Of a stretch of 64,000 bases of DNA, positions 6,885 through 34,037 are shown piece after piece (within the stretch, counting starts at the first letter, position 1; every line of letters starts with the position of its first letter). This DNA is from Desulfobulbaceae bacterium (GTDB taxonomy: Bacteria; Desulfobacterota; Desulfobulbia; Desulfobulbales; Desulfocapsaceae): NCBI GenBank assembly GCA_011390165.1, contig JAABSV010000001.1, positions 97,890 through 161,889 on the forward strand, in the 5' to 3' direction. The translations under genes and the position numbers were made by a program. Under the pieces are notes generated by a model. That model was not told the origin of the DNA and made no database searches. It worked only from the letters and a program-made list of their open reading frames with translations.

Positions 6885-8228
6885 TCACCGTATTGGATCG
6901 ACCGGTTGTTTTTGGGCACCGGCCAACTGCGCAGACCTTTTCTGGTTCAACCGTTTACGGTTTTCCGCTATCCTTCGGAAAATTTTTTTGATCACCGGCA
7001 GCCTTTTCAGATCCTCACCGGAAATCTGCCTGAGCACCAGATCTGTCCTGGCGATAACCGTGGCACTGCGTCGCCCCATTTTTGGGAAATAGGCCATCTC
7101 CCCGAACACATCACCTGGATTCAAGGTGTTGATCAGTTCACCTTGTAGGTCAAGCACATCGACACTGCCCTGGTCAATGAAGTAGACCCCGTCCGGGTGA
7201 TCGGAATACTGGAGTACCATATCGCCTTTTTTCCGCCAGACCAGTTGAAACAGCCTCTCCCACTCGGTGTTCAGTACCAGGGTCTGGTAGAATTCGGTGT
7301 TCATCGCCTTGAACAGGCCATTGGAGAGATTAAGCAGTCGCACGCCGAGATTACGGCCGGTGGGGTTGCCGATCTGCATGCCGCTATTGACGAAATTTTT
7401 TTCCGGTTGCGGGTAGTTACCGATATATTCAAGTAGCCGCTCGGTGGCCAGGTCCTTCTTGCCGGTTATCTGGCAAAAGAGTTTCTGGGCCGTCAGCAGC
7501 TGCTGCCGTGCCAGAGGGAAATCAGGCAGTATCCCCTGCAGCACATTACCACAGAAGAACTCCACGGCAGAATTTTTTATCGCTATGAATTGTCTGAGCT
7601 TTTCCAGATCGATATCTGCCGGACACTGGTGGATGCCGGGCCGATAAACGGAAAAAATATGCACCGGGTGACTGAAATTTTTCGGCGTCACCTTGCCGAT
7701 GCTGGTGAGATAGGGGGCATGTTCGGTCTGCCAGAAGGCCACCTCCCGATCCATCAGGATGTTCGTGCCAAAAAAGCCGCACAGTTCCTCCAGCCGACTG
7801 GCCACCGAGAAACTGGAACCGAAGCGCATGGTTTTTCCGTCGAGGACCGCCTCGATGATAGTGCCAGTAAAGAGGCCGATACGGGTGGCGGGGATGATAC
7901 CCTGCTCCATTGCCGCCACCATTTTCAAAGCGACATCAAGGGCCTGACCGCACATCCGGTCTTTACCCTGCCCATTTTTTCGTTCAAAAAGGGCCAGGGC
8001 ACCATCGCCGGCAGACGATTCGATCCGCTGCTCCGGACCACAGACCGAACAGACTATCTCCTTGAGGTTATAATGGTACTTGAGCATGAACTGCTTAATC
8101 TCACTCGGCCGCATGTCCATAATCAAGCGAGAGTAGCCAATCATGTCGCTGAGGAGGATGACCACCTCCTTTTCAATACCGAGGAGATCGTCTGCTGCGG
8201 CAGGGGTTGTGGGCATGGTCGATTCCAT
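6885..8228 (-). CDS. class III cyclase-like domain fused to a cyclic-nucleotide-binding domain
   Basis: 447 residues. The N-terminal half (about 20-200) is a class III nucleotide cyclase fold with both metal-binding aspartates, VILLSDMIGYS (D28) and SSAGDGALALFE (D75). The transition-state Arg is kept (SRLEEL, R145), but the usual Asn is Ser (S141 in FGSSFSVAS). The C-terminal part (about 320-430) is a Crp-type binding domain whose phosphate cassette GEMAYFPKMGRRSATV keeps the Glu and Arg that contact cyclic nucleotides. No DNA-binding domain and no membrane segment are seen. The ATG at 8228 overlaps the stop of the upstream exonuclease gene (ATGA), with AGAAGGTG as ribosome site. It could make and sense a cyclic nucleotide, or be a catalytically weakened sensor. 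Confidence 0.85.
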   Translation of the reverse strand: MESTMPTTPAAADDLLGIEKEVVILLSDMIGYSRLIMDMRPSEIKQFMLKYHYNLKEIVCSVCGPEQRIESSAGDGALALFERKNGQGKDRMCGQALDVALKMVAAMEQGIIPATRIGLFTGTIIEAVLDGKTMRFGSSFSVASRLEELCGFFGTNILMDREVAFWQTEHAPYLTSIGKVTPKNFSHPVHIFSVYRPGIHQCPADIDLEKLRQFIAIKNSAVEFFCGNVLQGILPDFPLARQQLLTAQKLFCQITGKKDLATERLLEYIGNYPQPEKNFVNSGMQIGNPTGRNLGVRLLNLSNGLFKAMNTEFYQTLVLNTEWERLFQLVWRKKGDMVLQYSDHPDGVYFIDQGSVDVLDLQGELINTLNPGDVFGEMAYFPKMGRRSATVIARTDLVLRQISGEDLKRLPVIKKIFRRIAENRKRLNQKRSAQLAGAQKQPVDPIR

Positions 8229-8950
8229 CACCTTCTCTCAGATGTCTCGGTGGCGGCCAGGGCCCACTGGAAAAATCGACTTCTGGGCATCGGCGAATCC
8301 ATCCAGGACTGATCAGGTTCGGGGTCGGTGATCACCTCGGCCACCGTCTTCAGGCGCGGCATCGGTTTGGAACTGACCGACCCTCGAGCTGTCACCCAGC
8401 GGACCTGACCGGCCCGGGCAATGGCCTGCACGACCTGATTGGTCATCTGGCAGTCGCCCAGGCAATAATCCATAACCAGACGGCAGTTTCCCGCCCGCCA
8501 CTGTTTCGGTGCATCGGCTCCGTCCATCAGTTTTTCCTGGGCAATCCCCATAGCCTGTGCCACCTTGGCAAGGCTCACCGGAAAACCGGCCTGGGTGAAG
8601 AACTGAAACATCGGGTCGTAACTGCGCAGGGCGATCTCGGCGGCAAGGGAGACTGCATCGGCCTGGTGGCCGATCCATTTCAGATCGAAACCCAGTCCGT
8701 TCCAGGCACAGACCATATACCCCAGCTCCTGCATCTCCTTGAGATAGTCGAGGAGTTGACGAGCCCTTGCCGGACTCATATTCAAGGCAGGACGCCCCTG
8801 GCCATCTTCGGAGTACCAGATGCGCTCCTCACCGCCGGAAATGGCGGTTGCCGCCACCGAGATATGAAACGGGGCGTATTTCTCCATATCTTCATAGCGG
8901 GCCAGTTCAAAGATATCAGAGATTTCAATGTCAAAACTGAGCAGTTTCAT
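8228..8950 (-). CDS. DEDDy-type 3'-5' exonuclease (ribonuclease H-like)
   Basis: 240 residues. The three exonuclease motifs are visible: Exo I LSFDIE (D7, E9), Exo II CAWNGLGFDLKW (D89) and Exo III DYCLGDC (Y162 and D166, the YxxxD of the DEDDy class). This matches the proofreading-exonuclease-like fold found in stand-alone 3'-5' exonucleases. No polymerase or helicase domain is attached. The ATG at 8950 was chosen because conserved sequence begins at once; longer frames add an unrelated His/Pro-rich segment. It is translationally coupled to the cyclase/CNB gene and divergent from umuD. Substrate (DNA or RNA) is unknown. Confidence 0.85.
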   Translation of the reverse strand: MKLLSFDIEISDIFELARYEDMEKYAPFHISVAATAISGGEERIWYSEDGQGRPALNMSPARARQLLDYLKEMQELGYMVCAWNGLGFDLKWIGHQADAVSLAAEIALRSYDPMFQFFTQAGFPVSLAKVAQAMGIAQEKLMDGADAPKQWRAGNCRLVMDYCLGDCQMTNQVVQAIARAGQVRWVTARGSVSSKPMPRLKTVAEVITDPEPDQSWMDSPMPRSRFFQWALAATETSERR

Positions 8951-10545: not shown

Positions 10546-10809
10546 ATGCCCGATCAGACCATCAAGGTAGCAAAGCTTCCCATTCGTCTTGGCCAGTTTC
10601 TCAAACTTGCCGAACTGGTTCAAGACGGGATGGAGGCCAAGATTCGCATCCAGGCCGGAGAGGTATCGGTTAACGGATCTCTGGAAACGAGGCGTGGTCG
10701 ACAGCTGCACAACGGCGACCGGGTGCATTTCGCCGGCCGGCAATGGCTGGTGGACGAGGATACCTACCCTTGCCCACCTTCCCCAGCAGCGAGGATGGAG
10801 AGAGAGTGA
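10546..10809 (+). CDS. small S4-domain RNA-binding protein (YbcJ-like)
   Basis: 87 residues, essentially one S4 RNA-binding domain: KLPIRLGQFLKLAELVQDG, then EVSVNGSLETRRGRQLHNGD, typical of the YbcJ/YaaA group. This family is thought to bind structured RNA such as rRNA; the precise role is not established. The ATG at 10546 has GGAG 7 bases upstream, whereas the ATG at 10534 lacks a site. Its last 46 bases overlap the 3' end of the convergent cyclase gene, so the two transcripts are complementary at their ends. Confidence 0.88.
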   Translation: MPDQTIKVAKLPIRLGQFLKLAELVQDGMEAKIRIQAGEVSVNGSLETRRGRQLHNGDRVHFAGRQWLVDEDTYPCPPSPAARMERE

Positions 10810-12332
10810 ACGACAACTTCGCTGACCAGCCCGCGCAGGAGCATTTTGTTGCTGCCCTCGAAACGCAGGGGGAGATGCAAACGCCGGCAGACACTGTCGG
10901 TGATCAGAATTTGTCCGGAAGCAGCGGAGGAGCCGAGGCGCTGGGCGATATTGACATCTGTGCCGACCACGGTGTAGTCGAGTCGGCGTGGTGAGCCGAT
11001 ATTACCAAGGAAAACCGGTCCCCGGCTGATACCGATACCAAGCCCTATCCTGGCGAAAACCGGGCTATCCGCCACCGCCTGTGACTGGAGTCTGGCAAAG
11101 CCGGTCATCACCTCCACTGCCGCCTGTACCGCAGCGTCATCAGGGTTGGCGATCTCTACGGGGGCGCCAAAGATCACCAATGCGCCATCTCCCATGAACT
11201 TATCGAGCATCCCCCGGCGGGCAAAAACCACCGTGGTAAAGAGATCAAAAAAACTGTTCAGGAAGCGGCGCAGTTCTCTGGTGGCGAGTTGCTGAACCAG
11301 CAGGGTGAAATTGCGGATATCGGCGAAAAGGACGGTCAGGTCCTGAACACTGCCGGCAGTCATCATCTCCTCGCCACTCTCCATCAGCAGGGTGGAAACT
11401 TCCGGAGAGACATACTGGCCAAGGAGGGCAAGCATCCGGCTCTGTTCTTCCCGTTCCCTGATTACCCGCAGGTTCTCAATAGCCAGCATTGCCTGACCGG
11501 CGAGAATGGTCAACATCTCCACTTCGGCCTCGTCAAAGTGGGCACCCTCGACGGTATTGCTGACATTGACCACCCCGAGCATGGCCTCACGGCCGACAAT
11601 GGGCAGAGAGATCGCCGTGGCAATTTCACTGCGTTCCATCAGCCGACCAAAGGGGCTGGCTGGCCGGCTGTCGCGGTTTAGCAGAACCGGATGGCCACTC
11701 TGAAAAACCCGCCCGGCAATTCTCTCCCCCGGCTGGATCTGCAGATTCTCCAGAAATCGTTCATCCAGACCACGGCTGGCCACCACCCGCAGACTGCCGG
11801 TGGCCTTGTCGTAGAGCATCACCGAGACGGCAGTGACCGGCACCACCTGACCGACGGCGTCGATGAGGTCGGCACAGACCGCCTGTTCACTCTGGGCGAG
11901 AAGAAACTTTCGTCCGTAATCATAGAGCGGCAAGAGCGTTTGCAGGCGGATGGAATCGGCCCGGACTCTTGACTCTTCGCCAATAGCCGCCACTGCCGCC
12001 AGCAGATCAGCGGCGACAAGCGGTTTGCTGCAGACACGGGTAAAACCACTGTTCACCGCGGCGACCACCCGCTCGGCATCGTTGGCGGCACTGAGCAAAA
12101 CCCCGGCAAGTTCAGGTCGATTGGTCCTGAGACGAGGGAAGAAATCGATGCCGGCCTCGGCAAAGGCCTCATCGACCACGGCCAGGGAATACCCTGTCTC
12201 ACCGGCAAAATGGAGCGCTTCGGCCGGATTGCTGCACAAGCTGGGCAGATACCCTGCCCCAGCCAGCCATTCCCGGCAGCTGGCAGCAAGCTGTACATCG
12301 GCGGTTACGATGAGGATTTTCTCGGCGACCAT
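10764..12332 (-). CDS. REC-GAF-adenylate cyclase (class III)
   Basis: 522 residues. Residues 1-120 form a response-regulator receiver (likely phosphoacceptor D54 in AVVDEAF, Lys in CSKPL at 103). A GAF domain spans about 140-295, and a class III cyclase domain about 325-500. The catalytic set is complete: metal Asp in VLFADIRNFT (D338) and GDGALVIFG (D382), adenine-selecting Lys in LDKFMGDG (K378) with D459, and Asn/Arg in DVNIAQRL (N461, R465). Production of cAMP is therefore expected, controlled by phosphorylation and a GAF ligand. The ATG at 12332 has GGGGAG upstream. No partner kinase is adjacent. The gene lies 50 bases downstream of pepA on the same strand. Confidence 0.9.
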   Translation of the reverse strand: MVAEKILIVTADVQLAASCREWLAGAGYLPSLCSNPAEALHFAGETGYSLAVVDEAFAEAGIDFFPRLRTNRPELAGVLLSAANDAERVVAAVNSGFTRVCSKPLVAADLLAAVAAIGEESRVRADSIRLQTLLPLYDYGRKFLLAQSEQAVCADLIDAVGQVVPVTAVSVMLYDKATGSLRVVASRGLDERFLENLQIQPGERIAGRVFQSGHPVLLNRDSRPASPFGRLMERSEIATAISLPIVGREAMLGVVNVSNTVEGAHFDEAEVEMLTILAGQAMLAIENLRVIREREEQSRMLALLGQYVSPEVSTLLMESGEEMMTAGSVQDLTVLFADIRNFTLLVQQLATRELRRFLNSFFDLFTTVVFARRGMLDKFMGDGALVIFGAPVEIANPDDAAVQAAVEVMTGFARLQSQAVADSPVFARIGLGIGISRGPVFLGNIGSPRRLDYTVVGTDVNIAQRLGSSAASGQILITDSVCRRLHLPLRFEGSNKMLLRGLVSEVVVHSLSILAAGEGGQG

Positions 12333-12382
12333 CACATCTCCCCTCTTCTCTCTCGTCGCCAGGGCAGTCAGAAGCGTCTCGC

Positions 12383-13912
12383 TCACTCCAGACGACCGGG
12401 CCAACGCCGCAGCAATTCAAGCAGAGTCCGTACACCAATGCCCGATGGCCCTTTGGGAATATAGGATTTCTCAGTAAAATCCCAAGCTGTTCCGGCAATG
12501 TCGAGATGGGCCCAGGGTGTCTCACCAACGAACTTGTGAAGAAATTCGGCAGCGGTGATCGCCCCACCGGGGCGACCACCGATATTTTTCAAGTCGGCCA
12601 CCTGCGACTGCAGTTGTTTGGCGTACACCTTGCCAAGAGGCATCCGCCAGAGTGGCTCGGCAGCAATGTCGGCGCTGGCGAGGAGCCGTTCGGCCAATCG
12701 GTCATTGTTGCTCATCAGGCAACTGTAGTGGTGGCCGAGAGCGATCACCGCCGCCCCGGTGAGGGTGGCGATGTCGATAACGCAATCGGGGCGGTACTGC
12801 TCTATACCGTAGGCCAGGGCATCGGCCAGCAGCAGGCGCCCCTCGGCATCGGTATTTTCGATCTCCACCGTACGGCCGCCGTATTGACTGATCACGTCCC
12901 CCGGCTTTACTGCCGCACTGCCATTCATGTTATCGGTGGCCGGGACAATGGCGACCACCCGGAGCGGCGGTTTTTCCACGGCGATTGCGGCCATTGTCGC
13001 CAGAACTGCCGCCCCGCCACACATATCGTACTTCATCTCCATCATCTTTTCTGCCGGTTTCAGGCTTATCCCCCCGGAATCGAAGGTCAACCCTTTCCCG
13101 ACCAAGAGAACAGTCTCCAGATTTTCGGTGGGCGCATAGTCGAGAATCACCATCTTCGGGGCTTCCGCCGATCCCTGATTAACCGCCAAAATCCCGCCCA
13201 TGCCCAGTTTTTCCATCTCCTTTCTGGACAGAACAAAACAGCGCAGGCCAAATTTAGCGGCAGTTTTTTTCGCATAGTGGGCAAAATGGGTCGGAGTCCA
13301 GCCGTTCCCCGGTTCGTTGGCCATATCTCGGGCATCTGCGACACAGCGGGCAGTGTGGGCCCCCCGGTCAACCCCCTTACGAACCGTGGGCTGCCGACCA
13401 GCAGTGAGAAATTCAGCTCTTTTCAGACCGGGATAGCTCTCCTCGTCCGTTTCCGTCTTGTACCGCACAAACTGGTAGGCACCCAGCAGTACCCCTTCCG
13501 TCAGATACTCGGCAACTACCTCTTCCCGACAATCCAGAACCACCGGCAGACAGAGAGCGACTCTTTCAATCCGTCTTTTTCGACAATGGTCGGCAACTAC
13601 CCCACCAGCCAGGCGAAGACGCTCATAGATCTCTGCCTCGCGTAGTTCTCCACTCAATCGACCGATCCCGACCAGCAGCAGGCGCCGACAGCAAAGCTTT
13701 GTTCCGGACGACGGATAGGGAGGATAGAGAGCCAGAGTTTGTTCACTTTTGCCCTTGAACTCAGGAAACTTGGCAACTTCCTCGAGAAGTGGAGCGAACT
13801 GCGGGTCAGCAAGCAGACTGCCATCGGCAGCCTGCCCGACAAAGAGCACCAGAAGATCTTCCGTACACTCCGCCACTGTTTTGCTACCAACCACCATTTT
13901 TGTCATCTTCAT
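12383..13912 (-). CDS. pepA: leucyl aminopeptidase, M17 family
   Basis: 509 residues, the normal family length. PepA is a hexameric cytoplasmic aminopeptidase with two metal ions that removes N-terminal residues from peptides. The signature NTDAEGRLLLADAL is intact. The metal-binding segment GKGLTFDSGGISLKP and the conserved YDMCGGAAVLA follow the family order. The N-terminal domain is variable, as usual. The ATG at 13912 has GAGGTAAGTG directly upstream; a GTG one codon earlier is possible. It is divergent from the CNNM gene across a short promoter region. Confidence 0.95.
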   Translation of the reverse strand: MKMTKMVVGSKTVAECTEDLLVLFVGQAADGSLLADPQFAPLLEEVAKFPEFKGKSEQTLALYPPYPSSGTKLCCRRLLLVGIGRLSGELREAEIYERLRLAGGVVADHCRKRRIERVALCLPVVLDCREEVVAEYLTEGVLLGAYQFVRYKTETDEESYPGLKRAEFLTAGRQPTVRKGVDRGAHTARCVADARDMANEPGNGWTPTHFAHYAKKTAAKFGLRCFVLSRKEMEKLGMGGILAVNQGSAEAPKMVILDYAPTENLETVLLVGKGLTFDSGGISLKPAEKMMEMKYDMCGGAAVLATMAAIAVEKPPLRVVAIVPATDNMNGSAAVKPGDVISQYGGRTVEIENTDAEGRLLLADALAYGIEQYRPDCVIDIATLTGAAVIALGHHYSCLMSNNDRLAERLLASADIAAEPLWRMPLGKVYAKQLQSQVADLKNIGGRPGGAITAAEFLHKFVGETPWAHLDIAGTAWDFTEKSYIPKGPSGIGVRTLLELLRRWPGRLE

Positions 13913-24235: not shown

Positions 24236-24601
24236 CTACGACGACTGGCTGTTGGGCTGGCCATCCGCCCGGCTATCCTGGTCGCTGTCGGCCATCTTGC
24301 CGCGCAGCGTTTCAATTTCGGTACGCAATGTGGCGATTTCGCTGCGTAGCAGGTCGATATCGGCACTCCTTGCCAGTTGCATCCCGGACAAAGCCGATTC
24401 CACTATCTTTTCGGTCTGTTTTTTCAGTGCGGCCCGGGACTCATCCGCCCGGCTGAGCAGTTCCTGGATGAATTTTTCCCCCTCTTGCTCCCCCATCTTT
24501 CCCTTTTCGACCAGATCCCGAGCCAGTTCCTCGATACTCTCCTTGGCCAACGAGGCGACTCCTATTCCGGTTAGAACGGTCTTTTTCAACAGATCAATCA
24601 T
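24236..24601 (-). CDS. phasin-like coiled-coil protein
   Basis: 121 residues. The N terminus (MIDLLKKTVLTGIGVASLAKES) and EELARDLVEKGKMGEQEGEKFI match the PhaF/PhaI-type 'polyhydroxyalkanoate synthesis regulator phasin' family. A long helical segment includes IDLLRSEIATLRTEIETLRGK, a leucine-rich coiled coil that could mediate oligomerisation. No polyhydroxyalkanoate synthase is nearby, so granule association is uncertain. The ATG at 24601 has GGAGGATGTG upstream and overlaps the stop of the dihydrouridine synthase gene, implying coupling. Confidence 0.82.
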   Translation of the reverse strand: MIDLLKKTVLTGIGVASLAKESIEELARDLVEKGKMGEQEGEKFIQELLSRADESRAALKKQTEKIVESALSGMQLARSADIDLLRSEIATLRTEIETLRGKMADSDQDSRADGQPNSQSS

Positions 24602-25611
24602 CACATCCTCCTGTATGCTGCATCCCATGAGATTCCGGCAAAAAAGGCCGTGGCCCGGGCAAGAGCTTCGGCCATTCCGGTACTGCTCTGAATAGCCGCC
24701 GCCAGATGATGGCCAAAGGGGCAGACGGCGGCGAAATACTGCGTGAACTGCTTCAATCGACCCAGTTGCCGCTCCGGGGCAAACCGTTCGCCGAGCAGTT
24801 CGCTGAAACGAAAGTACACTTCGGTCGGGGTGCGGCCACTGCCGGCCACCGGAAGGCCGTACACCTCCCTGGCAATTGCTGCCGGCAGCCACGGCCTGGT
24901 TACCGCTCCACGGCCAAGCATCAGCCCGTCGGCCCCCGACTCGGCCAGACAGCGCCTTGCATCGGCCACCGAAAAGATACCGCCATTGGCGAGAATTGGC
25001 AGATCAACCACCTCCCTGACCGCCGCCACAGCCTGCCAGCGAGGCTTGCGACAGAACTTTTCCCCGTCGAGCCGGGCGTGGACGGTGAGGAGATCGACCC
25101 CCTCTCCCGCCAGTGTGCGGCAGAGTTCCTGAAGGGCTGGAATATCAAGATTTCTCCCCAGACGAATCTTCACCGTCAAAGGAAGTGTCGTCCGCCGACG
25201 AAGGAGTCGCAGGGTGGCAAGCAGAGTGGGCCGATCGGCAACCAGCTCTGTTCCAGCCCCCATCTTTCTGACCATCGGGGCGGGACAGCCGAGGTTGAGA
25301 TCGATCCCTTGGGCATCCAGGGAGTGGAGTGTGTCCACCGCCTCGGCAAGGTGTTCCGGCCCCGCCGCCACCAGTTGATAAAAGAGGGGCCACTCGCCGG
25401 TGCTGCGTGCCAGAAGGGGCGAACAACGAGGATTGTCGTGCGGCAGCCTCTTTACGGTCAGCATTTCGCTGTACAGGAGCCCGACCCCACCCTCCTCCTG
25501 AACCAGGCTGCGCAGGGCGGAGTGGGATAAACCCACCATCGGGGCAAGGGCAATGGGAGGGGTGACAGGGAGACTGCCTACCTGCAGGGTCTGTACAATG
25601 CCCATCACCAT
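24601..25611 (-). CDS. tRNA-dihydrouridine synthase (Dus family)
   Basis: 336 residues, FMN-dependent TIM barrel that reduces uridines in tRNA to dihydrouridine. The flavin site begins with ALAPMVGLSHSALR. The catalytic cysteine lies in DLNLGCPAPMVRKMGAG. The phosphate-binding end is LPILANGGIFSVADA and GADGLMLGRGAVTRPWL. It is nearest the DusB type by these motifs, but I do not assign a subclass. The ATG at 25611 has GAGGA 6 bases upstream. It is downstream of the HEAT-like/CNB/PilZ gene on the same strand, 55 bases apart. Confidence 0.93.
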   Translation of the reverse strand: MVMGIVQTLQVGSLPVTPPIALAPMVGLSHSALRSLVQEEGGVGLLYSEMLTVKRLPHDNPRCSPLLARSTGEWPLFYQLVAAGPEHLAEAVDTLHSLDAQGIDLNLGCPAPMVRKMGAGTELVADRPTLLATLRLLRRRTTLPLTVKIRLGRNLDIPALQELCRTLAGEGVDLLTVHARLDGEKFCRKPRWQAVAAVREVVDLPILANGGIFSVADARRCLAESGADGLMLGRGAVTRPWLPAAIAREVYGLPVAGSGRTPTEVYFRFSELLGERFAPERQLGRLKQFTQYFAAVCPFGHHLAAAIQSSTGMAEALARATAFFAGISWDAAYRRM

Positions 25612-25666: not shown

Positions 25667-28027
25667 TCATCGGGCTAGCACCATACGTTTGACAATCTGC
25701 TCGTCGAGAAGAGTTGCCATCTTGATGTGGAGAGTGAAAAGATCCGCACCTTGCCCCTGTCCCTTCACCCCGACAACCACCCCTCGACACTCCGGCAGTT
25801 CCTCGCCGTCCACGGAGAAGAGGGTGAGGATCTTTCGACCAAGAAGCAGCCGGGCACTGTCGGTGTTGGCGATCCGGACTGAAAAGGCCAGGCCGCCGCG
25901 GGAAATGTCCACCATTTGTCCTTTGAACAGCCGCCCGCTTTGTCGGCCGTAACGATCGAGAAGGATATGCCTGGTAGGCAGGTTCTGGCGGTGTCGGGGA
26001 AACTCCCGTCGGTCCTCACCAGCCATTTTCACCAGTTCCGGAATTTCGGCATGGCTGCGGCAGTAACCGGCGAGAGCGGTGGCAATCCCCGGAAAGGTAG
26101 CGGCGATATCCTGATAGACCGGCAGGGCAAGCACCTGCACCTGCACGTCGGAGAGGGCCCGGAGGCCATAGGTCCAGACCGAGCTGGCCAGGAACTGTTC
26201 CCAGCCGAGGATTCTCCCCGGCTGGACCCGTTTCAGAAATACCTCTTTGCCGGCTACCAGACAGTTGACTCCGATCTCACCGGTATTGAGAAAATAGAGG
26301 CTGGCATCGGTTTCACCAACCCGAACGATGGTCTCACCGGTCTGATAGCTCTCCGGGCGCAATTGAGAGAAGAGGGCGCTCGCCTCGTCGGCGCTCATCT
26401 CTTTGTGAAAGTCGTTCCAGATGGCCATCTCTCGAAAACCGCAACAACCGTGTTTTTTCTCCTCGATCAACTGTTCGAGGGCAATGACCTCGTCAAGGAG
26501 TTGCGGGTTCACCTCGAGAAGTCGGTCGCGGAGCATCTCGGCAAGAAGCAGTTCCTCATCCTGCACGGCGGCTCTGGCCGCCTGCTGAACCAGTTCGCCG
26601 GCAGCTGTCGACCCACTGCTGGCAAGCAGGCTTCGAACCTGTGCCTCAATCTCCTGCAGCCTTCGGTAGGCCCGTTGCTGGGCCGCCGGATCGGTACCGA
26701 AACAGACCCTCTCCTCCTCACCACTCTTTTTTTGGCGCCTATGGCGCCATTGTGGTTCAACTACCTTCAGGGCTTCGTCGATGGCAAAAAGAATACTTTC
26801 CGGGCCGGCGGCGCACTCGCCGCGGAGCAACAAGAGCAGATCCACCGTCTGCCGACCGGGGAATGAATGGAGGGCAGCGATAATGGTCTGCAGCAGTTCC
26901 GGCCCGGTATCGGGCGAAAAACCTTTCCGCCGACCAACCAGGTGACAGAGCCCCGCCAGGACCTCACTACCAAGAGGTGTTCCCTGCATGAGCAGGCGGA
27001 TGACCTCGATCTTCAACCGCTCGCTGACCAGCGGCAGGGCTTCAAGAAGCCGCTCCTGTCGCTCCTCGGCGACAAATTTTCTGGTAAAGTTGAGGACTTC
27101 ACGCTGGACCCGCTCATCTTTATGGCCAAGGTAGGGGAAGGCGTCAGCATACAGGTCAGGATCACCGATGGCTGCCAGGACAGCAAGTATATTGCGAAGT
27201 ACCGGCCAGGGCGGCATTCTCGCCAGTCTTTCCCGTACGGCCGGCACCACTGGTGCCCCCAGAGAAGCGGCCAGCCGGATCAACTGCAACCGTTCGTCAC
27301 GGTTCCGGCCGGCGGCGATCCCGTCTAGGATGTGGCCAACGGCGCAAGGACCAAGGGCGATGAGCAGGGCGATAATCTCCGGCTGCTGAGCCTCCTCACG
27401 AAAATAGCTGTCGGCAAGCCACTCGACGATCTTTTTCCCGGCCAGTTTTTCCAGGCTCCGCGCCGCCAGAATCCGCAGTGCCCTGCCCTGCTGACCGTCG
27501 CCATCCTGCAAAGTGGTCAAGGCCTGGATAGTCCGCTCCGCCTCCATCCAAAAACCGCGAAACAGCAGCCACTCTGTGATCTCCACCACCTGCTGAAACA
27601 TCGCCTCGCTGCCGGAGAGCATCTCAGTCTCGTTCTCCAGCCAATGCCAGCAAGCCGGACAGAGGAGGAGCAGATCACGGTCCTGCCGGCTGAGCAGTTC
27701 GCTGGCCGCCAGAGAAAAAATGGCCAGCAGGCGGCTGCGCAGGCGAGGATCGGCTGCCGTCACCGCGCCGGCCAGTGAAGCGAGTAGCTGCTGCCTTTCC
27801 GGACGCTCATCCGGTTCGGCGGAGAGCAGAAAAAGAGAGAGTTGTCGGGCAAACCGATCGCCGTACAACAGGGGGAGATGGCCGCTGAGAAAACGTTGCC
27901 TGTCATCGGCAAAACTGTCCGTTTCCTGTGGTCGGCGGTGGGGCAGGCAGTATTCCAGGGGTAAGTCCATCACAGTATCCCACAGCTTTCTATTCAAGGC
28001 TACCGTATCCGGCTGACACCATGACAT
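25667..28027 (-). CDS. HEAT-like, cyclic-nucleotide-binding and PilZ domain protein
   Basis: 786 residues. The N-terminal two thirds (about 60-520) is all-helical with HEAT-like repeats, for example LRNILAVLAAIGDPDLYADAF followed by LGHKDERVQREVLNF. A Crp-type binding domain covers about 540-660 (ETIVRVGETDASLYFLNTGEIGV), but its phosphate cassette lacks the usual Glu/Arg pair. A C-terminal PilZ domain (671-775) keeps both c-di-GMP motifs, RREFPR (R674, R678) and DISRGG (D707, S709, G712). No membrane segment or enzyme domain is seen. It may convert c-di-GMP and another ligand into protein-protein contacts. The ATG at 28027 has GAGGG upstream; ATG 27970 is an alternative. Confidence 0.82.
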   Translation of the reverse strand: MSWCQPDTVALNRKLWDTVMDLPLEYCLPHRRPQETDSFADDRQRFLSGHLPLLYGDRFARQLSLFLLSAEPDERPERQQLLASLAGAVTAADPRLRSRLLAIFSLAASELLSRQDRDLLLLCPACWHWLENETEMLSGSEAMFQQVVEITEWLLFRGFWMEAERTIQALTTLQDGDGQQGRALRILAARSLEKLAGKKIVEWLADSYFREEAQQPEIIALLIALGPCAVGHILDGIAAGRNRDERLQLIRLAASLGAPVVPAVRERLARMPPWPVLRNILAVLAAIGDPDLYADAFPYLGHKDERVQREVLNFTRKFVAEERQERLLEALPLVSERLKIEVIRLLMQGTPLGSEVLAGLCHLVGRRKGFSPDTGPELLQTIIAALHSFPGRQTVDLLLLLRGECAAGPESILFAIDEALKVVEPQWRHRRQKKSGEEERVCFGTDPAAQQRAYRRLQEIEAQVRSLLASSGSTAAGELVQQAARAAVQDEELLLAEMLRDRLLEVNPQLLDEVIALEQLIEEKKHGCCGFREMAIWNDFHKEMSADEASALFSQLRPESYQTGETIVRVGETDASLYFLNTGEIGVNCLVAGKEVFLKRVQPGRILGWEQFLASSVWTYGLRALSDVQVQVLALPVYQDIAATFPGIATALAGYCRSHAEIPELVKMAGEDRREFPRHRQNLPTRHILLDRYGRQSGRLFKGQMVDISRGGLAFSVRIANTDSARLLLGRKILTLFSVDGEELPECRGVVVGVKGQGQGADLFTLHIKMATLLDEQIVKRMVLAR

Positions 28028-28344: not shown

Positions 28345-29583
28345 ATGCTCCAGCGCAGGATAGTCCTCACCGGTGTCGGCCTCGTCGCCCCCAACGCCAC
28401 CTCGTATTCTGAATTTCGGCAAAAACTGGTCAACGGCCAGAGCGAGATCAGCGAAATTGATCTCCGCTACTTCGGCAAGGCGCCGGCCGGAGTCTGCACC
28501 TTTCCGGAAACCCTCTATCGGAAAAAGAAAGAGAACAAGAAAGGAACCCGGGCCGGTTGCCTCGGTGTCTACTGCGCCAACGAGGCCCTGCTCAACGCCA
28601 GGCTCGACCTCTCCAGCTACGACCGCTCCCGGGTCGGTGTGTATATCGGTCTGACCGAACACGGCACCGTCGAAACCGAAAACGAAGTATACAATATCAG
28701 CCGTTACGACTACAACGTCGACTACTGGACCCACCACCACAACCCCCGGACCGTCCTCAACAACCCGGCCGGCGAGATCACCATGAACCTTGGCATCACC
28801 GGCCCCCATTATGTGATCGGTGCCGCCTGTGCCGCCGGCAATGCCTCGCTCATTCAGGCGGTGCAGATGCTTCGCCTGGGAGAGGTGGAGATGGCCCTCG
28901 CCGGCGGCATTTCTGAATCGGTGGGTTCATTTGGCATATTTGCCAGTTTCAAGGCCCAGGGCGCCCTCGCCGAAGCAGCTGACCCAAGGGCGGCAAGCCG
29001 CCCCTTTGATAGCGCCAGGAACGGCATCGTCATCTCTGAGGGAGCCTGCATCTACACCATCGAATATCTGGAGCGGGCCCTGGAGCGAGGGGCGCCGATC
29101 CTTGGCGAAATCGTTGGCTACGGAATGAACTCTGATGCCCGTGACTTCGTCCTTCCCTACGGCCCCCGACAAGCCGAATGTATGCGCCTGGCCCTTGCCG
29201 GCGCCGAATTGCAGCCGGATGAGATTGACCTGGTCAACACCCACGCCACCGGCACCAGACAAGGGGATATTGAGGAGTGCAAGGCGATCCGGGAGGTGTT
29301 TCACCACTGCCCGACCACCTACGTCAACAACACCAAGAGTATCATCGGCCACGCCATGGGGGCGGCCGGGGTTCTCGAACTGGCCGGTAACCTCCCATCC
29401 TTCAACGACCATGTCATCCACCCCACCATCAATGTCGACCACCTCGACCCGGAGTGCCACCTTGACAATCTGGTGTTGAACCATGCGCGAACCGTGCCCA
29501 AGGTGGAAACAATCCTCAACAACTCTTTCGGGATGGTGGGGATCAATTCGACGGTGATCGTCAAGAAATGGCTCCAGGACTGA
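28345..29583 (+). CDS. beta-ketoacyl-ACP synthase (FabF-like)
   Basis: 412 residues, condensing-enzyme fold. The catalytic Cys-His-His triad is complete: C162 in GAACAAGNAS, H300 in VNTHATGTRQGD and H336 in KSIIGHAMGAAG (with K331). It therefore should decarboxylate malonyl-ACP and elongate an acyl chain rather than act as a chain-length factor. The segment 57-75 (YRKKKENKKGTRAG) is unusually basic, and 118-135 is rich in aromatic and His residues (WTHHHN), unlike housekeeping FabF. It heads a same-strand cluster of ACP, two flavoproteins, ketoreductase and dehydratase, so it likely serves a dedicated pathway. Spacing to the ACP gene is 149 bases, with a possible internal promoter. Confidence 0.9.
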   Translation: MLQRRIVLTGVGLVAPNATSYSEFRQKLVNGQSEISEIDLRYFGKAPAGVCTFPETLYRKKKENKKGTRAGCLGVYCANEALLNARLDLSSYDRSRVGVYIGLTEHGTVETENEVYNISRYDYNVDYWTHHHNPRTVLNNPAGEITMNLGITGPHYVIGAACAAGNASLIQAVQMLRLGEVEMALAGGISESVGSFGIFASFKAQGALAEAADPRAASRPFDSARNGIVISEGACIYTIEYLERALERGAPILGEIVGYGMNSDARDFVLPYGPRQAECMRLALAGAELQPDEIDLVNTHATGTRQGDIEECKAIREVFHHCPTTYVNNTKSIIGHAMGAAGVLELAGNLPSFNDHVIHPTINVDHLDPECHLDNLVLNHARTVPKVETILNNSFGMVGINSTVIVKKWLQD

Positions 29584-29633
29584 CTTTCTTCCCCTCAAGA
29601 CAAATAACTGTAAACAAGTGAACCAGGGTATGG

Positions 29634-29639
29634 TATAAA
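29634..29639 (+). promoter_or_regulatory. possible extended -10 element before the ACP gene
   Basis: TATAAA preceded by TGG forms an extended -10 (TGn-TATAAA) about 95 bases before the ACP start. No good -35 is present. It is followed by a small inverted repeat, GTTTTG and CAAAAC (29644-29662). Confidence 0.3.
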
Positions 29640-29732
29640 AAGCGTTTTGCCATTGACAAAACAGGTGCCCCCGGTATTTTCAGGAGGCCGTGTACCGATA
29701 CCACTTTTTTCACGTCGAATCCGGAGACCTTC

Positions 29733-29984
29733 ATGACAAGTACTGAGATACAAGAGCTGATTCTCGAGATCATTCAAGATATTGACGATGAGGCTGACTT
29801 TTCCGATCTTGACCCCGACCAGCCCCTGCGCGACCAGCTCGACCTCGATTCCATGGATTTTCTCGATATCGTCATGGAACTGCGCAAACGCCACAAGCTG
29901 CAGATTCCCGAGGAAGATTACCCCCGCCTGGCCACCCTCAACAGTTGTGTTTCTTACCTGACTCCCCTGCTGCACGACGCCTGA
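29733..29984 (+). CDS. acyl carrier protein
   Basis: 83 residues, acidic. The phosphopantetheine attachment Ser is S40 in LDLDSMDFLDIV, matching the DSL-type motif with Met in place of Leu. Helix I (IQELILEIIQDID) and the final helices fit the ACP fold. GGAGACCTTC precedes the ATG. It lies between the ketosynthase and two flavoproteins, so it probably carries the intermediates of this cluster rather than serving general fatty acid synthesis. Confidence 0.93.
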   Translation: MTSTEIQELILEIIQDIDDEADFSDLDPDQPLRDQLDLDSMDFLDIVMELRKRHKLQIPEEDYPRLATLNSCVSYLTPLLHDA

Positions 29985-29988
29985 GGCG

Positions 29989-31386
29989 GTGAAAACCCCT
30001 CTTCTGGTCATTGGTGGCGGCCTCTCCGGAATAGCTGCCGCCATTCGGGCCGCCCGCTTCATCCCAGATGTCCTGCTGCTGGAAAAACACCACCGCCTGG
30101 GTGGTCTGAACTCGTACTTTTATCGCCACGGTCTCCTCTTCGAAACTGGCCTGCATGCGATCACCAACTATGCTGAACCGAGGGATAAAAAGGCACCGCT
30201 GAACCGTCTGCTGCGCCAGTTGAAACTCCCCAGGGATACCTTTAACTTCTTGCCCCAGCGGCAAAGTGAGATCCTCTTTCACGGCTGCGCCAGCCTGCTC
30301 TTTTCAAACGACTTCAATCTGTTCCAAGAAGAAATCAAGCGGCAGTTTCCCGCCTCGGCGGATAATTTTGCCGCCCTGGTCGCCTTTCTTGACGGTTTTG
30401 ATCCCTTCGTTATTCGCCCCTTCCGCTCGACCCGCCAGTTTCTTGTCGAGCGGCTCCGCGAACCGCTGCTGCAGGAGATGCTCCTCTGCCCCCTCCTCTA
30501 CTATGGCTCAAGCCACAGCAACGATATCGACCTCAGCCAATTCGCCATCATGTTCCGGGCGATCTATCAGGAAGGGATGTTCCGACCCGGTGGGAATATC
30601 AAGGAGTTCCTCGATACCCTGCGCAACCACTACCTCTCCCTCGGCGGCTCTCTCCGCACCGGCTGCGGGGTGGCCCGAATCGTCTGTAGCGGTGAACGGG
30701 TGGAGCGAGTCATTCTGGCGGACGGTGAGGAACTGGAGTGTGACTACCTCCTCTCGACCATAGGCTACCACGAAACCCTTCGCCTCCTCGCCGAAAGTAC
30801 GGCAGCACCGCCGGCCGCCCTTGCCGGGCCACGGCTTGGCTTTATCGAAAATATCTACCTGCTAAAAACTCCGCCAACAGCACCGCCACTCAGTGACAAA
30901 ACGATCATTTTTTATAACAAGGGCGACACGTTCTCTTATCAGCGACCAGACCAGCCAGTGGACTTTCACAGCGGCGTGATCTGTTTACCGGGCAACTTTG
31001 CCCAGTTGCCGCCGCGGTTACACCAAGAGATTCGTTCTACCCATCTCGCCAGCTACCCTCTCTGGCGACAACTGGCTGACGACCCGGCCGCCTATCTGGC
31101 TGAAAAACAATCCTCCTCCCTCCGTTCCCTGGTTGAGCTCGAGTCTGTACTCGGTCCGTTCCGAGAAACTATTCTCTATGAAAACAACTTCACACCTGTT
31201 ACCATAGAGCGCTACACCGGAAAGCTGGAAGGTGCGATTTACGGCAACCCGGCCAAAATCAAGGATGGCGATATCGGCTACCGCAACCTCTTTCTCGCCG
31301 GCACGGACCAGGGTTTTCTCGGTATCGTCGGGGCCATGCTCAGCGGGGTCTCCATCGTCAACAGTCAAATTCTCCCCAACCTCTAA
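29989..31386 (+). CDS. FAD-dependent oxidoreductase, phytoene desaturase-like (first copy)
   Basis: 465 residues from a GTG start 4 bases after the ACP stop. The N-terminal dinucleotide-binding motif is VIGGGLSGIAAAIRAA, followed by LLEKHHRLGGLNSYF, the arrangement of CrtI/CrtN-type desaturases and isomerases. The C terminus has NLFLAGTDQGFLGIVGAMLSG, the usual flavin-contact segment. The family dehydrogenates or isomerises long hydrophobic polyenes. Here the neighbours are fatty acid synthesis enzymes rather than carotenoid synthases, so an acyl-ACP or lipid substrate is inferred. The second flavoprotein gene follows at once and has related motifs, suggesting an old duplication. Confidence 0.85.
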   Translation: MKTPLLVIGGGLSGIAAAIRAARFIPDVLLLEKHHRLGGLNSYFYRHGLLFETGLHAITNYAEPRDKKAPLNRLLRQLKLPRDTFNFLPQRQSEILFHGCASLLFSNDFNLFQEEIKRQFPASADNFAALVAFLDGFDPFVIRPFRSTRQFLVERLREPLLQEMLLCPLLYYGSSHSNDIDLSQFAIMFRAIYQEGMFRPGGNIKEFLDTLRNHYLSLGGSLRTGCGVARIVCSGERVERVILADGEELECDYLLSTIGYHETLRLLAESTAAPPAALAGPRLGFIENIYLLKTPPTAPPLSDKTIIFYNKGDTFSYQRPDQPVDFHSGVICLPGNFAQLPPRLHQEIRSTHLASYPLWRQLADDPAAYLAEKQSSSLRSLVELESVLGPFRETILYENNFTPVTIERYTGKLEGAIYGNPAKIKDGDIGYRNLFLAGTDQGFLGIVGAMLSGVSIVNSQILPNL

Positions 31387-31417
31387 GCGATTCTGTTTTG
31401 TAACCACTCTGTTATCT

Positions 31418-32821
31418 ATGCCGGTACCTTTTCCTCAACTGGCCCAAGCCTACGATGTGATCGTGGTCGGCTCCGGCCTCGGTGGACTGACCGCTGCCAA
31501 CCGCCTTGCCTACTGCGGCCACAAAGTCCTTCTCCTCGAACACCACCACCGCCTTGGCGGTCTGGCAACCTGGTTCAAACGCCGGGGGCACATCTTTGAT
31601 ATCAGCCTGCACGGTTTCCCCTACGGCATGGTGAAGACCTGCAAAAAGTACTGGAACCGGGCAATCATGGAGTCCATTGTCCAACTGCGTGACATCGTCT
31701 TCGACAATCCCCAGTTCTCTCTCCGCACCACCTTTGACAAGGAGGATTTCACCCGCCTCCTCCGCCAGCAGTTCAAGATCCCGGCTGACACCATCGACCG
31801 TTTTTTTGCCACCGTCGCCCGGATGAACTTCTACGACGACCAGTCGATGACCACCCGGGAGTTGTTCGAACGTTTTTTCCCCGGACGCTCCGATGTCCAT
31901 CGCCTGCTGATGGAACCGATCACCTACGCCAACGGCTCAACCCTTGATGACCCGGCAATCACCTATGGTATCGTCTTTTCCAACTTCATGAACAAGGGGG
32001 TCTACACCTTTTCCGGCGGCACTGACAGGTTGATCGGCCTGATGACCGATGAGCTGGAAAAAAACGGGGTGACAATCTGCACCTGCGCCAAGGTCGACAA
32101 GATTCTTGTCGAGCGGGGGGAGGTCCGGGGGGTGTCGGTGTTGGGTAAAACCATTACCGCCCGGGCAGTGGTTTCCAACAGTGGAATTACCAACACCGTC
32201 CACAACCTGACTGATCGGGAGGTCTACTCACCGGAATTCCTTGACAAGGCTGATCGGGTCCGGGTCAACAACTCGAGCTGCCAGGTCTACCTCGGCATCC
32301 GGGATGGCGAACATCTCGATGCGGTCGGCGACCTCCTCTTCACCTCCACCGCACCGCAGTTTGACTCGGAAGAGCTTCTTGATCTGCAAACCCGATCAAA
32401 AACCTTTTCCCTCTATTATCCGAAGACCCGTCCCGGCCAGAACCGCTATACGGTGGTGGCCTCAATGAACAGCCGCTATGACGACTGGGCGGCTCTCGAC
32501 GACATCCACTACCAGGAGGAAAAAAAGGCGATGATCAACCGTTCGATCTTCGACCTGGAACGTTACCTCCCCGGGGTGTCGGCCAAAATTGACTGGGCGG
32601 AGGCAGCCACCCCCAGGACCTTCAACACCTACACCCTGCACACCCGCGGCACCTCCTTCGGTACCAAGTTCGAGGGGCTGGATATCTCCCGTTCCATCTT
32701 CCGGGAGGTGGCCGGGTTGTTTCATGTCGGCTCGGTGGGTATAATCATGTCCGGCTGGCTTGGGGCAATAAACTACGGGGTCATCGTGTCCAACGATGTT
32801 GACCTCTACCTGCGATCCTGA
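31418..32821 (+). CDS. FAD-dependent oxidoreductase, phytoene desaturase-like (second copy)
   Basis: 467 residues. The N-terminal VIVVGSGLGGLTAANRLA and LLLEHHHRLGGLATWF parallel the preceding protein, and TFSGGTDRLIGLMTDEL is the conserved central segment of this superfamily. The C terminus GLFHVGSVGIIMSGWLGAINYG is diverged from the usual flavin-contact motif. The ATG at 31418 was chosen because the flavin fold starts there; the longer frame overlaps the previous gene by 155 bases. No strong ribosome site is visible, consistent with reinitiation. Two adjacent flavoproteins suggest successive desaturation or isomerisation steps on one substrate. Confidence 0.85.
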   Translation: MPVPFPQLAQAYDVIVVGSGLGGLTAANRLAYCGHKVLLLEHHHRLGGLATWFKRRGHIFDISLHGFPYGMVKTCKKYWNRAIMESIVQLRDIVFDNPQFSLRTTFDKEDFTRLLRQQFKIPADTIDRFFATVARMNFYDDQSMTTRELFERFFPGRSDVHRLLMEPITYANGSTLDDPAITYGIVFSNFMNKGVYTFSGGTDRLIGLMTDELEKNGVTICTCAKVDKILVERGEVRGVSVLGKTITARAVVSNSGITNTVHNLTDREVYSPEFLDKADRVRVNNSSCQVYLGIRDGEHLDAVGDLLFTSTAPQFDSEELLDLQTRSKTFSLYYPKTRPGQNRYTVVASMNSRYDDWAALDDIHYQEEKKAMINRSIFDLERYLPGVSAKIDWAEAATPRTFNTYTLHTRGTSFGTKFEGLDISRSIFREVAGLFHVGSVGIIMSGWLGAINYGVIVSNDVDLYLRS

Positions 32822-32832
32822 AAGAGGCAGAG

Positions 32833-33573
32833 ATGGAGAGTTTTGCAACCCAGACAATCCTGGTCAGCGGGGCCACCCGCGGCATCGGCAAGGCCGTGGC
32901 CGAGGCTTTCCTCCGGGCGGGGGCCACCCTCATTGGCATCTATGCCGGCAACAACGACGCCGCCAGCCGCTTTGCCGAGGAGAATCAGGCCTATGCCGAC
33001 CGATTTTCCCTCCACCGCTGCAATGTTGCCGATGAGCAGGAGGTCGGCAAACTTTTTACCTGGATCGAGGAGAACCATCAGGCCCTTGATGTCCTGGTGA
33101 ACAATGCCGGCATCCGCCGAGATGCCCTGTTGGCCATGATGCGCACAACTCACTGGCAGGAGGTGCTCGACACCAACCTCACCGGCAGTTTTCTGATGGC
33201 CAGGGCAGCGGTTCTGTTGATGCTGAAAAATCGCTATGGCCGGATCATCAATATCACCTCGCCAGTTGCCCACCTCGGTTTTCCTGGTCAAGCCAACTAC
33301 GCCGCATCAAAGGCCGGCCAGATGGCGATGACCCGCTCCCTGGCCAGAGAGGTTGCCCGGAAGAAGATCACCGTCAACTGTGTCTCACCCGGCTTTATCG
33401 CCACCGATTTTATCGCTGACCTGGCTGAGGAACAAGTCGCTGCCTACAAAAAAATGGTACCGATGCGCCGCTTCGGCACCCCGGCAGAGGTGGCTCAGGC
33501 GGTGCTCTTTCTTGCCTCACCGGGAGCCTCATATATCACCGGGACAACCCTTGATGTCCACGGTGGGCTGTAG
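32833..33573 (+). CDS. 3-oxoacyl-ACP reductase (FabG-like SDR)
   Basis: 246 residues, classical short-chain dehydrogenase. The nucleotide-binding motif is VSGATRGIGKAVAEAF, then VLVNNAGIRRD. The catalytic triad is S143 (NITSPVAHLGF), Y156 and K160 (YAASK). The C-terminal GTTLDVHGGL is the normal FabG end. It should reduce the keto group formed by the ketosynthase, using NADPH. GAGGCAG precedes the ATG; it starts 11 bases after the flavoprotein stop. Confidence 0.92.
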   Translation: MESFATQTILVSGATRGIGKAVAEAFLRAGATLIGIYAGNNDAASRFAEENQAYADRFSLHRCNVADEQEVGKLFTWIEENHQALDVLVNNAGIRRDALLAMMRTTHWQEVLDTNLTGSFLMARAAVLLMLKNRYGRIINITSPVAHLGFPGQANYAASKAGQMAMTRSLAREVARKKITVNCVSPGFIATDFIADLAEEQVAAYKKMVPMRRFGTPAEVAQAVLFLASPGASYITGTTLDVHGGL

Positions 33574-33587
33574 ACAAGGAAAAAAGA

Positions 33588-34037
33588 ATGGCGTTGTACC
33601 CGGAAGTCACCACCCTGATACCGCATCGACCACCCTTTCTCTGGGTAGACAGGATACTCTCCTTCACCGGCAAGGAGATCTCTACCGTAAAAAAGATACC
33701 CGAAAACCTGCCAGTTTTTGCCGGCCACTACCCGGGCAACCCACTGCTGCCGGGCGTGCTCCTCTGCGAGGTGGTTTTTCAGAGCGGAGCGGTCCTCATG
33801 GCCCTGCGAAGCGAGCAGGGGCCCAGGCAGGAAAGGGTACCGGTTCTCACCCGGATCCAGACCGCGCGCTTTAAACGGCCAGTCCATCCCGGTGATCATT
33901 TGCAGGTTTCAGTGCATCTCAGCGAAGAACTGGCCGGAGTGGCCTTTTTCAAGGGGAATATCAAGGTCGCCGGGCGGACGGTGCTGCAGGTGGAGTTTTC
34001 CTGTGCGATGGCCGCCGTGTCTACCGCCGACCGATAG
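33588..34037 (+). CDS. 3-hydroxyacyl-ACP dehydratase (FabZ-like hotdog)
   Basis: 149 residues, hotdog fold. IPHRPPFLWVDRI at the N terminus and FAGHYPGNPLLPGVLLCEVVFQSG (45-68) match FabZ, with the catalytic H47 and E61 both present. It should dehydrate the 3-hydroxyacyl-ACP to the 2-enoyl form. No enoyl reductase is in the cluster, so double bonds may be retained and a polyene product is plausible. AAGGA precedes the ATG by 9 bases. It is the last gene of the lipid cluster, 182 bases before tolQ. Confidence 0.9.
   Translation: MALYPEVTTLIPHRPPFLWVDRILSFTGKEISTVKKIPENLPVFAGHYPGNPLLPGVLLCEVVFQSGAVLMALRSEQGPRQERVPVLTRIQTARFKRPVHPGDHLQVSVHLSEELAGVAFFKGNIKVAGRTVLQVEFSCAMAAVSTADR

Follow-up and report, generated by a model that had tools for sequence, protein, structure and literature searches.

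A HEAT-CNB-PilZ protein family of Desulfobulbales with a remodelled phosphate-binding cassette and a predicted c-di-GMP site

Architecture of the protein

The protein described here, 786 amino acids (aa) long, is encoded in a 64,000-nucleotide stretch of Desulfobulbaceae bacterium DNA (assembly GCA_011390165.1, contig JAABSV010000001.1), hereafter called the window. Judging by the alignments and the predicted models, a single chain joins a HEAT/ARM-like superhelix, a helical linker, a cyclic-nucleotide-binding (CNB) domain and a C-terminal PilZ domain (Table 1). The predicted start, ATG at 28027, is plausible, and the open reading frame (ORF) itself opens further out, at TTG 28105; about 40 N-terminal residues align poorly with orthologs. 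In the AlphaFold2 model of the whole protein, built with 30 orthologs (predicted local distance difference test, pLDDT, 83.7), helices occupy residues 29-435, the helical linker spans 447-528, and the strands of the CNB and PilZ domains begin at 557 and 684, respectively. Pfam searches of the orthologs at E<=0.001 recover cNMP_binding in 30 of 30, HEAT_2 in 27 and PilZ in 25.

In the window protein itself HEAT_2 stays below the Pfam curated cut-off (18.9 vs 27.7 bits), which is passed by some relatives, such as L052 (63.9 bits) and L041 (52.8 bits). Residues 29-436, modelled alone, form 24 helices at pLDDT 90.3, and this model matches HEAT/ARM superhelices such as the PP2A scaffold and importin alpha with root-mean-square deviations (rmsd) of 10-20 A, which for a predicted model indicate the general helix-pair arrangement and not family membership.

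Matches at E<=0.001 occur in 139 of 192 genomes of the class Desulfobulbia, and 50 of the 192, the window's own included, encode an ortholog of nearly full length, covering 624 or more of the 786 residues at E<=5.4e-93; one of the 50 has an internal TGA. A preliminary description, made from the sequence alone, had read the protein as a helical repeat scaffold followed by a Crp-type domain and a PilZ domain with intact RxxxR and DxSxxG motifs, and had named structure prediction as a test of the scaffold and an architecture search for the combination. The reading frame, Pfam and AlphaFold2 agree with the three-part layout; the prediction for residues 29-436 yielded a superhelix with the PP2A scaffold and importin alpha among its matches; the motif residues R674/R678 and D707/S709/G712 are in place; and the combination recurs in the 50 genomes just mentioned.

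Table 1. Features of the HEAT-linker-CNB-PilZ gene and of the genes downstream of it
Feature	Residues	Window coordinates	Strand	Basis or remark
HEAT-linker-CNB-PilZ protein	786 aa	25667..28027	(-)	Stop codon within coordinates
HEAT/ARM-like helical superhelix	~45-435	26723..27895	(-)	AlphaFold2 models, fold matches, HEAT_2 in orthologs
Conserved helical linker	~447-535	26423..26689	(-)	Alignment and AlphaFold2 model
CNB fold	~546-658	26054..26392	(-)	Pfam and structure match
Remodelled phosphate-binding cassette	606-622	26162..26212	(-)	Alignments, window scan
PilZ domain	~666-784	25676..26032	(-)	Pfam
PilZ RxxxR motif	R674/R678	25994..26008	(-)	Alignment
PilZ DxSxxG motif	707-712 (D707, S709, G712)	25892..25909	(-)	Alignment
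tRNA-dihydrouridine synthase (Dus) family gene, downstream, likely same transcript		24601..25611	(-)	Pfam Dus E=3e-54
Third gene, helical protein, weakly phasin-like	121 aa	24236..24601	(-)	Below Pfam cut-off

An intact PilZ signature and an altered CNB cassette

The PilZ match at residues 672-783 (E=2.1e-7) scores 31.7 bits against a curated cut-off of 22.5. We gathered 121 linker-CNB-PilZ modules, of which 120 remained as distinct relatives once a duplicate of the window protein had been dropped; since linker and CNB profile matches were needed for collection, diverged relatives, for example L050, are under-counted. All rows except ten found outside the class are treated as in-class, lineages not being checked one by one; six in-class rows lack HEAT, and two of them, L086 and L150, could be fragments, since they begin close to the end of a contig. 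R674, R678 and G712 are invariant in all relatives, and both motifs are intact in 115 of the 120. From this signature, the PilZ domain probably binds cyclic di-GMP (c-di-GMP). Degenerate PilZ domains can act as protein-interaction modules, and the five relatives with a damaged motif would fit a purely structural scaffold, with PilZ and CNB serving for docking and neither sensing a nucleotide; however, the motifs stay intact in the other 115 while the positions flanking them vary, and we consider such a scaffold improbable.

The CNB assignment rests on a Pfam cNMP_binding match at 559-635 (E=2.8e-11, 43.6 bits vs a cut-off of 27.5) and on the similarity of the model to the HCN2 CNB domain (3bpz_C; VIA-align Z 16.4, rmsd 2.1 over 128 residues). 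Pfam matches at E<=0.1 include no helix-turn-helix after the CNB domain of the window protein, unlike in CRP/FNR transcription factors. The canonical Glu and Arg are absent from its phosphate-binding cassette, where W609 and W618 occupy their positions; profile alignment to the PKG and PKA structures likewise places V (W in the window protein) at the Glu site and W at the Arg site. Across the 120 relatives the residue at the Arg position is W in 108, C in 5, S in 4 and R in 3 (in two of the three R rows an indel puts Y in the column, and the residue directly before the conserved Thr was counted instead), so that the phosphate-binding Arg is missing in 117, that is, family-wide. The three R rows, which keep the Glu, are stand-alone CNB-PilZ proteins from two genomes (G392 twice, G434); the nine stand-alone CNB-PilZ relatives outside the class have R in 3, C in 5 and S in 1. 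The cassette Glu is kept in 20 of 104 in-class HEAT-fused relatives.

This altered cassette is itself well conserved. G608, F612, S616, W618 and T619 are invariant across the 30 orthologs, and mean pairwise identity is 0.66 in the cassette (606-622), compared with 0.49 in the CNB domain, 0.46 in PilZ, 0.44 in the linker and 0.37 in HEAT. Ranked by identity among 770 windows of 17 residues, the cassette stretch comes fourth and a linker stretch, 495-511, first at 0.68. The pocket thus looks remodelled rather than decayed, and its region is, by the alignments, under strong constraint despite the lost nucleotide-binding residues. The NCBIfam family 2B encapsulin model matches the CNB domain of three paralogs (E 2e-8 to 4e-9) at only 34-36 bits against a cut-off of 400; we discarded that relation as reflecting the shared CNB fold only.

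A cassette without Glu and Arg makes sensing of cAMP or cGMP by this domain unlikely. The genome of the window gives matches to 6 PilZ, 15 GGDEF, 5 HD-GYP-like and 17 CNB domains and to 4 class III cyclases, two of the latter inside the window, so parts of both the c-di-GMP and the cyclic-nucleotide systems are present. The cyclases, together with the Glu retained in the 20 HEAT-fused relatives, could be cited for a crosstalk sensor whose CNB domain binds cAMP or cGMP despite the altered cassette while PilZ binds c-di-GMP. Such a sensor is nonetheless very improbable, given the 117 relatives without the Arg, the additional loss of the Glu in the window protein, and the canonical cassettes retained by several further CNB proteins encoded in this genome (L250, L254 and the product of window 6888-8231 (-), with FGEMAYFPKMGRRSA, though not L249 or L257). 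Besides its C-terminal CNB domain, the 6888-8231 protein has a class III cyclase domain that is weak (21.7 bits, slightly under the cut-off); in the product of window 10767-12404 (-), a response-regulator domain, a GAF domain and a class III nucleotidyl cyclase domain are combined. Two other genomes (G098 and G105) have cyclase matches about 13-14 kb from the family gene.

The preliminary description had noticed the missing Glu/Arg cassette and suspected a ligand other than cAMP; the alignments and the comparison with PKG and PKA confirm the former, and the latter is probably right given the loss of both residues. It had also proposed that c-di-GMP and a second ligand act on one scaffold, of which the c-di-GMP half agrees with the intact PilZ signature and the superhelix, while for the second ligand the altered cassette fits an internal plug or a domain interface equally well. 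A two-ligand receptor, in which the remodelled CNB domain would bind a small molecule other than cAMP or cGMP (candidates are nucleosides, hydrophobic metabolites and, as for Clp, cyclic dinucleotides) and HEAT would integrate this with c-di-GMP, is consistent with the rank of the cassette among the best conserved stretches and with the match of the model to Clp (3iwz; Z 15.0, rmsd 3.0 over 130 residues, one of many CNB matches and not singled out). But a plug or a fixed interface would be conserved just as strongly, and we regard such a receptor as rather unlikely. With moderate confidence, we favour instead a c-di-GMP receptor or adaptor scaffold in which the CNB domain serves for coupling and is either plugged from within or occupied by another ligand.

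Relatives, separate halves and neighbouring genes

The sequences point to a receptor family that is conserved in Desulfobulbales, often with several copies per genome. The window's own genome holds a 1115-aa paralog on contig C53, and cable bacteria also contain relatives; a contig scan with a single-protein query recovered no relative, and an alignment-based scan did. The longest relative examined, of 2223 aa (L043 2134-8805 (+)), appears by eye to carry about five near-identical tandem copies of a unit of ~200 aa ahead of its HEAT part. In Desulforhopalus vacuolatus (L134) three HEAT-CNB-PilZ genes (809, 790 and 793 aa) are clustered. None of the four family proteins searched against NCBIfam is described by a model scoring above its cut-off.

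Across the phylum, 97 of 395 genomes match the family profile at E<=1e-15. Outside the class mostly single halves are found, either CNB-PilZ proteins of ~330-365 aa or HEAT proteins of ~500-850 aa; a full fusion, of 689 aa, occurs there in one genome (G494), and another (G512) encodes a CNB-PilZ protein and, on a different contig, a protein matching HEAT and the N-terminal domain described below. A quick midpoint-rooted tree, built from 60 of the 121 modules with near-duplicates, short rows and the cassette columns excluded, joins its eight stand-alone CNB-PilZ rows of other classes and the HEAT fusion L184 in one clade with support 99; without an outgroup it does not give the order of fusion and splitting. 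The distribution suggests that a HEAT protein and a CNB-PilZ protein were probably fused to form the family; alternatively, an ancestral fusion may have been split repeatedly.

The HEAT-only proteins have neighbours of their own. Among 50 loci of high-scoring HEAT-only rows, picked regardless of neighbours, 46 yielded the HEAT gene, and in 27 of these the next gene downstream on the same strand encodes an HD-GYP protein; ten loci around modules of other classes, a small control, contain no HD-GYP gene. The three HD-GYP neighbours searched against Pfam are all HD_5, and HDxGK and GYP are held by all 19 HD-GYP proteins examined. A profile built from the first 170 residues of nine long relatives detects 20 of 29 HEAT-only proteins (E<=4.6e-6), with its strongest matches among them to the set's five best-scoring members, and 17 of the 19 HD-GYP proteins (E<=3.8e-6); these E-values refer to the small sets searched. 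This 'YPxxHP' domain, the N-terminal ~150 aa of, for instance, L223:5434-7032, L223:7022-8359 and L041:6869-9637, is common to long CNB-PilZ paralogs, HEAT-only and HD-GYP proteins, and has no Pfam match at E<=0.01 in the proteins tested. One scenario that would accommodate these relations is that the CNB domain was repurposed from a stand-alone form (GE...RT or GE...CT) to a HEAT-fused form (G-x...S-x-W-T) with a new ligand, making a two-input receptor for c-di-GMP and a second signal on a HEAT scaffold related to that of the HD-GYP operons; we hold it as a tentative possibility only.

Next to the full-length gene itself, neighbours were counted across 58 loci, which hold 49 proteins of 760-860 aa with the full architecture; the longest-ORF gene finder used may miss genes. 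In 38 of the 49, the window included, the next gene on the same strand is dus, at gaps of -44 to 191 bases, and 18 of those 38 then have the gene for the small helical protein. The window itself has 55 bases between the family gene and dus, and its third gene begins with an ATG that overlaps the last base of dus. The neighbours of the long paralogs (Maf and a primase-like protein, named by eye) were considered as a functional clue and gave no lead. On the divergent side, window 28345-34034 (+) encodes a ketoacyl synthase, two FAD-dependent oxidoreductases, a short-chain dehydrogenase and a FabA-like protein according to Pfam, a set which we take to resemble an aryl-polyene-like lipid cluster.

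Proposed mechanism and known systems

In the receptor or adaptor that we favour, the C-terminal PilZ domain would bind c-di-GMP through RxxxR and DxSxxG. As PilZ directly follows the CNB domain and the conserved linker, binding should reset the arrangement of these three parts, which would in turn alter the superhelix surface offered to a protein partner. The CNB domain, with both phosphate-binding residues lost and its cassette built on an invariant S-x-W-T, would act not as a cAMP or cGMP sensor but as the coupling domain, its pocket filled internally or by a non-canonical small molecule. The HEAT part appears to descend from proteins whose genes, in other Desulfobacterota, often stand directly upstream of one for an HD-GYP c-di-GMP phosphodiesterase; HD-GYP enzymes or a protein encoded by an adjacent gene would be the candidate partners first in line.

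Several observations weigh against this proposal. The damaged PilZ motifs (S709 to A or C, or D707 to E) include that of the long paralog in the same genome, and L050 has, by eye, neither motif. The structure search with the whole-protein model gave match rows spanning residues 437-673 only, a range that does not cover the PilZ domain. The conserved neighbours, dus and the small helical protein, suggest no c-di-GMP output. None of the nine best-scoring HEAT-only rows (L216-L220, L261-L264) adjoins an HD-GYP gene, so that the HD-GYP link rests on more distant HEAT relatives, and the window protein is without the shared YPxxHP domain.

For the c-di-GMP field, the family adds a conserved, probable receptor for which we found no curated family model, and it exposes an N-terminal domain that links HEAT, HD-GYP and CNB-PilZ proteins. 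Its natural series of cassettes (R, C, S, W) opens the loss or change of cyclic-nucleotide sensing to direct testing.

YcgR and other PilZ receptors share with the window protein a PilZ domain with RxxxR and D/NxSxxG after an N-terminal regulatory part; in the window protein a HEAT superhelix, linker and CNB domain stand in place of the YcgR-type N-terminal domain, which Pfam does not detect at E<=0.1. The HEAT-only proteins upstream of HD-GYP genes have a related HEAT region and an N-terminal domain in common with the long paralogs, but are separate chains without CNB-PilZ. In KCNH channels an intrinsic ligand occupies the pocket of the CNB homology domain (PMC7515569, in excerpt), and by analogy a pocket-filling plug is one option for the window CNB domain, where it is putative; the window protein is no channel. 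Clp of Xanthomonas and Lysobacter is a CRP-like, c-di-GMP-responsive transcription factor and so likewise places a CNB fold in a c-di-GMP-responsive protein (PMC11139211, in excerpt), whereas Pfam at E<=0.1 detects no DNA-binding domain in the window protein. The available portion of PMC6717892 describes Bd1971 of Bdellovibrio as a cyclic nucleotide (cNMP)-EAL phosphodiesterase with a consensus cassette that binds cAMP. It has a CNB and a c-di-GMP domain on one chain, as here; the window family differs in its remodelled cassette and in having a c-di-GMP receptor domain, not an EAL enzyme, and no EAL domain is found in the window protein by Pfam at E<=0.1. Neither HEAT-CNB-PilZ nor CNB-PilZ was found described in the open-access literature searched, including the accessible part of PMC8316039. 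The single domains are known, as is, from that portion of PMC6717892, the joining of a CNB to a c-di-GMP domain in Bd1971; the HEAT-CNB-PilZ combination is new as far as this open-access search goes.
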